DNA from: Candidatus Spechtbacterales bacterium
GTDB taxonomy: Bacteria > Patescibacteriota > Minisyncoccia > Spechtbacterales > 2-12-FULL-38-22
Assembly: GCA_040879145.1 (NCBI GenBank)
Contig: JBBDKX010000007.1
Span: 1 to 43,441 of the forward strand
Length of the DNA stretch: 43,441 nucleotides
Direction: 5' to 3'
Translations under genes and position numbers: made by a program
The notes under the pieces: model-generated
The model's database searches: none
What the model saw: the letters and a program-made list of their open reading frames with translations, nothing else
Told to the model about the DNA's origin: nothing
Shown here: positions 11,394-31,732 of the stretch, piece after piece
Layout: each line of letters begins with the position of its first letter
Numbering within the stretch: position 1 is the stretch's first letter

Positions 11394-11497
11394 AAAATAA
11401 AAACAGTGTCCGCCCACCTGGATTCGAACCAGGGACCACTGGCTTAAAAGGCCATTGCTCTACCAACTGAGCTATGGGCGGACACTGTTTTTATTTT
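11394..11497 (-). repeat. 16-bp inverted repeat extending the tRNA-Lys acceptor stem
   Basis: AAAATAAAAACAGTGT (11394-11409) and its exact complement (11482-11497) directly flank the acceptor strands, so the precursor can form a 23-bp uninterrupted stem. Confidence 0.8.
11409..11481 (-). tRNA. tRNA-Lys(TTT)
   Basis: Acceptor CCGCCCA/TGGGCGG with discriminator A. D-arm AGCTCAGTTGGTAGAGC. Anticodon loop CTTTTAA with anticodon TTT. T-arm CCTGG-TTCGAAT-CCAGG. The anticodon stem has one A-G mismatch at its outer pair. CCA is not encoded. Gene order on the minus strand: tRNA, then a terminator. Confidence 0.93.
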
Positions 11498-30309: not shown

Positions 30310-30493
30310 CTATGTTACTATATTTGCGGTACTTTAACAAGTACATATCCGCCTATGCATAAAGCTATGGCGAGATAGATCGGTTCCCAGACGACTGCTT
30401 TGAGGTTTGCTGTTTTAAGCTGCCAACAGAGGATGGAGTTGTGGGAAAAGACAAGGTCCACGACACTTTGTGTCGGGACAGAAGGAGGCAAAG
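30310..30493 (+). other. Structured leader before the 30494 gene
   Basis: About 180 nt without a convincing gene. It begins with GCGG-TACTT-taac-AAGTA-..-CCGC (30327-30353) and ends with CGACAC-TTT-GTGTCG (30462-30476), five bases before the Shine-Dalgarno. In between are several GC-rich stretches. It may be a cis-regulatory leader. I recognise no known riboswitch. Confidence 0.35.
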
Positions 30494-31234
30494 ATGCCAC
30501 AGGAAAATGAAAAATGCTGCGAGCATAATTGCTACAAAAACCAGGAAGAAGAGATTACCTCTGAAGAAGCGGTGAAAATACTAAAAGAAGATATACCATT
30601 TTTTTTGAAAAAACACTCTAAAGAATTTAATGCTTTTAGCCTGTTTGAGAAAGTTTTAGGAGTTGAAGAAAATCAAGAAAAATTCCACTTAACGGGTGAA
30701 ACCGCAGGCGAAGGGTTTTTACTGCACTGGAATCTTTTTTTATGGGTCGGAAGCGCCTGGCCATTAAGGCTTTCTGTAGAATATACAGGCGGCAAGTTGG
30801 AAATTACGCAAGTCAGGATCTATGATGAAAATCGTCTTGCAGAAATAATATCTTCAGGAGACTTACCCGCAAAAGCAGTAAAAGCTCTTTATGCAGACCT
30901 GCTTAACCTTGAGCACATGCGGCAGAGTGGGGAATGGGACCTTACCTGGGCAAAACCTTCAAAAATAAGAGAGTGGAACCACAATATTAGAGAGTTAATT
31001 TGTGAAAAAACAGGTTTAAACATAGGTACGCTGGGCAAAATAATGAACAATTATGAAGCCATGCAAAAAATAATTGTAAAAATGAACGCATATAAAGAAG
31101 GTCTCAAAAAAGCAATACAGGGACTTGAAGAATCAAAACAATTCACAAAAAGCCCCCAACTTAAAGAATTGAGAGAAGAGCTTGAAATCATCTTAGATCC
31201 AAACAAACATGCCTACGAATTCTATAACAATTAG
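30494..31234 (+). CDS. Uncharacterised 246-residue protein with Cys-rich head
   Basis: Start ATG with AAGGAGG six bases upstream (an earlier in-frame ATG at 30470 lacks this). The first residues MPQENEKCCEHNCYKNQEEE contain a CCxxxC cluster. The middle KFHLTGETAGEGFLLHWNLFLWVGSAWPLRLSVEYTGGKLE.. is a beta-rich stretch; the last third is a long amphipathic helix (NAYKEGLKKAIQGLEESKQ..LREELEIIL). No signal or membrane segment. I know no family. It is isolated by a leader before and a terminator after. Confidence 0.75.
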   Translation: MPQENEKCCEHNCYKNQEEEITSEEAVKILKEDIPFFLKKHSKEFNAFSLFEKVLGVEENQEKFHLTGETAGEGFLLHWNLFLWVGSAWPLRLSVEYTGGKLEITQVRIYDENRLAEIISSGDLPAKAVKALYADLLNLEHMRQSGEWDLTWAKPSKIREWNHNIRELICEKTGLNIGTLGKIMNNYEAMQKIIVKMNAYKEGLKKAIQGLEESKQFTKSPQLKELREELEIILDPNKHAYEFYNN

Positions 31235-31243
31235 CACATTTAA

Positions 31244-31275
31244 AAAAACACCGCGTAATGCGGTGTTTTTATTTT
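31244..31275 (+). terminator. Terminator of the 30494 gene
   Basis: CACCGC-GTAAT-GCGGTG followed by TTTTTATTTT, A-rich before. Confidence 0.88.
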
Positions 31276-31298
31276 AGCGGAATCAGGCCTTCTGTGAA

Positions 31299-31732
31299 CA
31301 GTTTTCCAAATATCCGGTTTTAAACCATCTCGCAGGCGGAGCGGGCATCGTTTTTTTAACACGCCAACGCGTTGGCGTGTTAAAAAAGAGTGACGCCGAG
31401 AGTGAGGGCATAAATCCTCGCTGGGGATGAGCCCTCTCTTTAAAATACAAAATACGCTTTAGAAGCACAGGAATGAGTCAGATTCGCGAAGCGAGGGTAA
31501 AGGAGTAGTTTATCTACTTCAATGCCCGAGCGACAAAGGAGATGGCTCATTCCTGTGCTTCCCGAAGGGCGGGTGTATATTTTCCATATCCTTTGTTTTC
31601 ATCGCTCATGCACATCTGTGCATTTCACTCTTCAGGCCTAGGCTATGGAAAATATTCACTCCGCTAAATGAATTCTGTATTTTAAAGAGAGGGCCGGACC
31701 CGTGTGCAAAAATCGGAGTATTTGGAAAACTG
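31299..31732. repeat. Nested inverted-repeat element IR-3 (434 bp)
   Basis: This fills the 500-bp gap between two convergent genes. Outer ends CAGTTTTCCAAATATCCG (31299-31316) and complement (31714-31732, one extra base). A perfect 36-bp palindrome centred on ACGCGT (31352-31387). A perfect 19-bp pair GCCCTCTCTTTAAAATACA (31431-31449 with 31676-31694). A perfect 16-bp pair GAAGCACAGGAATGAG (31462-31477 with 31546-31561). ATATTTTCCATA (31577-31588 with 31644-31655). ATGCACA-TC-TGTGCAT (about 31606-31621). No plausible open frame. Confidence 0.75.

Follow-up and report, generated by a model that had tools for sequence, protein, structure and literature searches.

The palindromic block and its neighbours

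The window analysed here is a stretch of 43,441 bp from a Candidatus Spechtbacterales bacterium, and within it a dense block of inverted repeats occupies positions 31299-31732 (features are given on the plus strand unless stated otherwise). The block lies between convergent neighbours, an unclassified gene at 30470-31234 on one side and, on the other, a gene for an SbcC/Rad50-like ATPase followed by one for an SbcD/Mre11-like nuclease. The inverted pairs that the first-pass annotation had listed were all recovered in an inverted-repeat search. The outermost arms, 31299-31321 and 31710-31732, are perfect over 14 bp, or pair over about 18 bp with one bulged base, and a perfect palindrome of 36 bp, to which no strand is assigned, covers 31352-31387. 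Further inward, 22 of 23 positions match between 31431-31453 and 31672-31694 (including 19 perfect), 18 of 19 between 31462-31480 and 31543-31561 (16 perfect), and 18 of 20 between 31573-31592 and 31640-31659 (12 perfect). As had been described, the 16- and 12-bp pairs lie within the 19-bp pair, but the two stand side by side and are not nested in each other. Compared with 100 dinucleotide-preserving shuffles per strand, the block folds far more stably on both the plus (z = -14.2) and the minus strand (z = -11.5). The palindromes are real and far beyond chance.

Folding predicts a small hairpin in the outer shell at 31401-31422, formed by AGTGAGGG and TCCTCGCT and including wobble pairs. Outside the element, at 31244-31276, the inverted pair AAAAACACCGC/GCGGTGTTTTT with its T-rich tail forms an intrinsic-terminator-like hairpin of the upstream gene. 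The 36-bp palindrome was also considered as a terminator and was rejected, because its T-run lies on the 5' side of the stem whichever strand is read.

BLAST of the block against its own genome (G000; 847 kb in 39 contigs) gave matches on many contigs, all of them to the inner 264 bp at 31431-31694. This inner part is one copy of a dispersed element and a complete repeated unit, and the surrounding 31299-31430 and 31695-31732, with the left outermost arm and the 36-bp palindrome, have no other match in the genome. The insertion of one element into another, which the first-pass annotation had raised as a possibility, is supported by this composition. The outer shell is separate and probably older material, and the simplest reading of the nest is that the element inserted into an older hairpin, or that palindromes accumulated around the site. 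Since the inner part recurs at many unrelated sites of its own genome and in other genomes, an assembly artefact could be dismissed. The annotation had also pointed to a hairpin-processing complex next door, and an SbcD/Mre11-like and SbcC/Rad50-like pair is indeed adjacent. The position of the element beside a complex of the hairpin-cutting type is suggestive but is apparently a coincidence: G000 has a single copy of the ATPase gene, so that the other 13 copies of the element are not beside it, and the carrier genome G001 lacks the gene. The pair was therefore rejected as a functional partner.

Architecture, distribution and fold of the inner element

By our own tally of BLAST matches, matches to a covariance model (R1) and extracted loci, G000 contains 14 copies of the element, one of them in two parts at the ends of contigs C4 and C25 and another with a single hairpin; six copies are present in G001, which represents a sister genus. 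Every extracted copy follows the same plan of arm, TTTAG, hairpin A, CCC-nnn-GGG, hairpin B, CTAAA and arm. The copies are gene-less, and a unit length of 220-330 bp leaves no room for a gene. In the copy studied here, the left arm (P1, 31431-31457) is near-identical to that of the copy at G000:C36:22497-22761, with which it has GCCCTCT[A/C]TTTAAAATACA... in common. It is followed by the P1 foot TTTAG (31458-31462), which pairs with CTAAA at 31664-31668, and by hairpin A (P2, 31463-31560), which has a 19-bp covarying stem and a tip with regularly spaced 2x2 internal loops. The mini-hairpin P3 (CCC-GAA-GGG, 31561-31569) separates hairpin A from hairpin B (P4, 31570-31663), which carries the motif of A on the minus strand, and the right foot and right P1 arm (31664-31694) complete the unit. 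Just outside the nest, the sequence TTTAGCGGAATCA at 31274-31287 equals the foot of hairpin B in copies from G001 (L096), and is perhaps a remnant of another copy.

Although R1 was built from 13 hairpin-A sequences only, many copies have an additional R1 match, in hairpin B and on the opposite strand; therefore, the two hairpins represent one motif in inverted orientation. Matches to R1 were found in 32 of the 286 genomes of the class (28 of 221 genera), with up to 13 matches per genome, typically a plus-strand match followed 4-6 bp later by a minus-strand match, and some weaker matches being single hairpins. In a phylum-wide sample, four genomes of other Patescibacteria classes (G471, G488, G494 and G570) also gave matches. 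A junction pattern derived from the element, and hence not independent evidence within Patescibacteria, was scanned against named genomes and retrieved loci from Staskawiczbacteria, Nealsonbacteria, Yanofskybacteria, Paceibacter, Berkelbacteria and other Patescibacteria, together with chance matches elsewhere that served as negative controls. R1 matched every one of the 27 Patescibacteria-type loci, including two with the bare title 'bacterium', but none of 26 loci from other bacteria and none of 36 viral loci. Viral contigs, whose 36 loci have part of the tip motif, were considered as carriers and rejected for want of a model match, and the element was not found outside Patescibacteria or in the viral contigs sampled. 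Rfam gave no convincing match at gathering and relaxed thresholds, and none above the gathering threshold, and a literature search that left most subscription papers outside its reach found no description of such elements. The family is apparently undescribed so far. One genome, G249, has a single-hairpin version (L084, L142, L143 and L144) with constant outer arms, AGACCATTACAAAACTC, and a near-constant tip, and the inner stems of 16-18 bp differ between its copies.

An alignment of 24 copies from 15 genomes supports a fully paired four-way junction composed of the P1 arms and foot, hairpin A as P2, the mini-hairpin P3 and hairpin B as P4. Paired cells amount to 93.1%, as against 71.1% in shuffled alignments and at most 44.1% when the structure is slid along the alignment; because the structure came from this very alignment, the sliding comparison is to some extent biased in its favour, but double changes are in large excess (426 versus 122 cells). 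Compensatory changes on both sides were observed for 70 of the 83 base pairs, with a covariation score of 0.597 versus 0.192. Even the P1 foot covaries, TTTAG/CTAAA being replaced by TTGAG/CTCAA in other genomes. These results show that pairing has been conserved through compensatory change while the sequence of the stems is free. The first-pass annotation had read the perfect matching as a sign of recent formation or strong selection, and this holds insofar as pairing, not sequence, is conserved across the 24 copies.

Stem wobbles counted on the plus strand, uncorrected for common descent, comprise 19 GT and 7 AC cells in hairpin A and 4 GT and 14 AC cells in hairpin B, and P1 is biased towards the minus strand (28:13). 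The counts suggest that the strand on which a hairpin is read is the one with its motif pointing inward, and the opposite biases argue against one RNA strand carrying the whole function.

Mobility and broken tRNA genes

Two copies in G194 contain 100%-identical stretches of 271 bp at unrelated sites. In the congener G251, the flanks of one of these sites are present without the element, and conversely one copy of G251 is absent from G194. This reciprocal absence in two congeners, together with identical copies at different sites, shows that the element moves. The identity of the flanks is about 80%, and the boundaries of the empty sites are thus not base-exact. No clear target-site duplication was seen among the extracted copies and congener sites, and 3-6 nt were lost at the tRNA breaks described below. 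Among the R1 matches, in a search that was not exhaustive, no longer partner element with the same ends was noticed. The sites are intergenic, several of them directly before start codons, and no constant neighbour gene was seen across copies. Two loci, L010 and L015, repeat the end of the right arm in direct orientation ahead of the left arm, which gives a short hairpin. For the copy at 31431-31694 no precise empty site was found, because no close relative has the flanking gene; only G004 has the ATPase gene, at 32% identity, and a DNA search of that genome gave no element.

Six of the 20 copies in G000 and G001 adjoin the remains of broken tRNA genes. At G000:C21:68842-69168, the element separates nucleotides 1-13 from nucleotides 20-76 of a tRNA-Glu, and an intact tRNA-Glu is located between the two hairpins of this copy; the copy at G001:C22:44726 lies between fragments of tRNA-Arg (nucleotides 12-42 and 46-77) with an intact tRNA-Arg inside hairpin A. 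Similar breaks associated with the element affect tRNA-His, tRNA-Thr and tRNA-Lys in G000 and tRNA-Glu in G001. The breaks fall in, or at the edge of, the D, anticodon or variable loops. The His and Thr loci have a second break, in the anticodon loop, and in it the intact tRNA stands on a palindromic stem of 17 and 10+ bp, respectively, the order at the Thr locus being partly inferred across two contig ends and an N-run.

ARAGORN detected 37 tRNA genes (2.85 kb) in 845.8 kb of G000, an incomplete set from which some isoacceptors (e.g., Ala and Asn) were missed. His-gtg, Glu-ttc, Lys-ctt and Thr-cgt are each represented by one intact gene in the 845.8 kb, which stands beside or inside an element. 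As tRNA sequence makes up about 0.3% of the genome and 4 of the 14 copies lie in tRNA genes, we estimate that the placement of the element in tRNA genes is far above random. Of six tRNA genes with fragments of at least 24 nt, four are at elements, and flank palindromes scoring at least 10 surround 5 of the 37 tRNAs, compared with 1.3% of random places. Perfect inverted flanks of 10-14 bp with no adjoining element were also observed around tRNA-Lys(ttt) at 11408-11481 and tRNA-Ser(gga) at 1028-1112 of the window, and around tRNA-Arg(gcg) at L279:14455-14528. A second kind of tRNA-breaking element occurs in G000, where a small GIY-YIG nuclease ORF (PF01541) lies between an intact tRNA gene and a tRNA fragment, with tRNA-Arg(tcg) at L285:5185-5583 (G000:C38) and with tRNA-Gln(ttg) at L295:7544-8122 (G000:C25).

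Identity and possible movement of the element

We consider it probable that the inner 264 bp is a copy of a family of miniature, gene-less mobile DNA of Patescibacteria, which was inserted into, or became wrapped by, other palindromic material and which moved as a folded single strand. Most likely the element is REPIN- or MITE-like, non-autonomous and recognised as a folded single strand. Like MITEs, it is short and gene-less, with terminal inverted repeats and dispersed copies. REPINs and BIMEs are doublets of REP sequences moved by RAYTs (PMC3116915, PMC3733652), each REP unit being 20-40 bp long and tagged GTAG or CGTC (PMC3733652). The element resembles them in being non-autonomous, intergenic and present in multiple copies per genome, and in its two inverted hairpin units with a short spacer, its compensatory changes in paired regions and the tetranucleotide at each hairpin foot. 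However, its hairpins are about 100 nt long, with covarying 19-bp stems and an elaborate tip, its outer arms close a four-way junction, its foot reads TTAG/TGAG (TTTAG/TTGAG), and it is frequent in tRNA genes. Because it is REPIN/MITE-like but lacks two defining REPIN features, the tag and size and the link to RAYT, we term it a variant of miniature palindromic mobile DNA.

It is accordingly improbable that the element is a strict REPIN or BIME with a RAYT tyrosine transposase as its mobiliser, even though its inverted, gene-less doublet of hairpins tolerates compensatory change and has a tag-like TTAG at each hairpin foot. Within the order, both strong carriers have RAYT genes (PF01797) and the five remaining genomes have none, but by our count these genes occur in 24 of 32 carriers and in 188 of 286 genomes of the class, which is no enrichment. 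Some well-assembled carriers, such as G243 (97% complete, with eight hairpin matches and four elements), gave no PF01797 match, and around the four RAYT genes that were tested R1 found no element hairpins up to a distance of about 1.5 kb. Moreover, the RAYT-type Y1 transposase genes at L102-L105 (G001 and G000:C19) are flanked by short perfect palindromes of their own, e.g., GACCTACTATAGGGTTGCC T GGCAACCCTATAGTAGGTC, which differ from the element motif and are apparently the REPs of Patescibacteria. RAYT was therefore rejected as the mobiliser, and our analysis identified no mobilising enzyme.

Two other known systems invite comparison. The double-hairpin or repetitive hairpin-forming elements of mitochondrial DNA (PMC2800124) are likewise mobile and gene-less, sometimes lie inside RNA genes and have no flanking duplications. 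They belong to other organisms and stay in the transcripts of the gene that they enter, whereas here an intact tRNA copy coexists with the broken one. Tyrosine recombinases serve the integrative elements that target tRNA genes (PMC9897764), and a partial and a complete tRNA gene copy are found at the element in both cases. In contrast to those, the Patescibacteria element is only about 265 bp long and has no integrase, the tRNA is broken in the D, anticodon or variable loop, and the intact copy can sit inside the element on a palindromic stem. The mitochondrial elements have, to our knowledge, no motif in common with the element described here.

As to the mechanism of movement, we infer that the element would be moved in trans in the form of a folded single strand and that, as with REPIN ends or IS200/IS605 hairpins, each hairpin would be read on its inward-pointing strand. 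It would enter the single-stranded loops of other hairpins, such as the D, anticodon and variable loops of tRNAs or the loops of other elements, and we propose that such entry gives rise to nests like that at 31299-31732. Insertions that keep or copy an intact tRNA would be the ones that survive. The bias of P1 towards the minus strand is without explanation in this strand-reading model. It is also conceivable, although rather unlikely, that the system recognises the shape of a cloverleaf or four-way junction and not a sequence, copying a structured unit on a palindromic stem of about 20 bp into the loops of folded strands. Such a system would also handle tRNA genes, which encode cloverleaves, and broken tRNAs would be rescued by an intact copy in a hairpin loop.

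The first-pass annotation had suggested a large structured RNA. A structure confined to this locus does not agree with a unit that is dispersed, patchy and insertion-polymorphic and whose two hairpins look conserved on opposite strands. A family of structured non-coding RNAs with a host function (an sRNA, riboregulator or 3'-UTR element), present in several copies by chance, would account for the extreme compensatory variation, the conserved internal-loop motif and the intergenic sites, several directly before start codons and two (L015 and L017) with a ribosome-binding site in the right arm. We nevertheless think it improbable, given the two near-symmetric inverted halves, the opposite G-U versus A-C biases of A and B, which favour no single strand throughout, the patchy distribution with insertion polymorphism and insertion into tRNA genes, and the lack of a constant neighbour gene among the copies seen. 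Least probable of all, in our opinion, is an origin without any dedicated mobility, as a by-product of general palindrome-forming replication errors (template switching at hairpins). The arms that are perfect and of arbitrary sequence, the T-loop-T' hairpins in the left flanks at L010 and L015 and the tRNA genes on palindromic stems of 10-17 bp speak for such errors, which may well contribute to the outer shell of the nest. However, these errors leave unexplained why a single architecture of 220-265 bp and its tip motif are conserved in many families of Patescibacteria, and why distant sites have identical copies.

Patescibacteria have reduced genomes, and these host an apparently undescribed family of mobile DNA that extends over many families within the phylum and has no counterpart in Rfam. 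The extreme covariation of this DNA, in which the fold is kept and not the sequence, makes it a test case for mobility by recognition of shape, and the element may show how DNA spreads by shape instead of sequence. The tRNA breakages are natural experiments in a cell whose tRNA genes are mostly single-copy. Both shape-dependent movement and tRNA rescue are processes that we infer.

The arms of many copies (L069, L106-L125, L075, L097 and others) resemble the complement of the tRNA T-arm (GGATTCGAACC), which hints at an ancestral capture of a tRNA. At L015 (G000:C20) and L017 (G000:C34), what is likely to be the ribosome-binding site of the following gene lies in the right arm, and the left arm has the complementary sequence; in a read-through transcript, the start signal would therefore be hidden.
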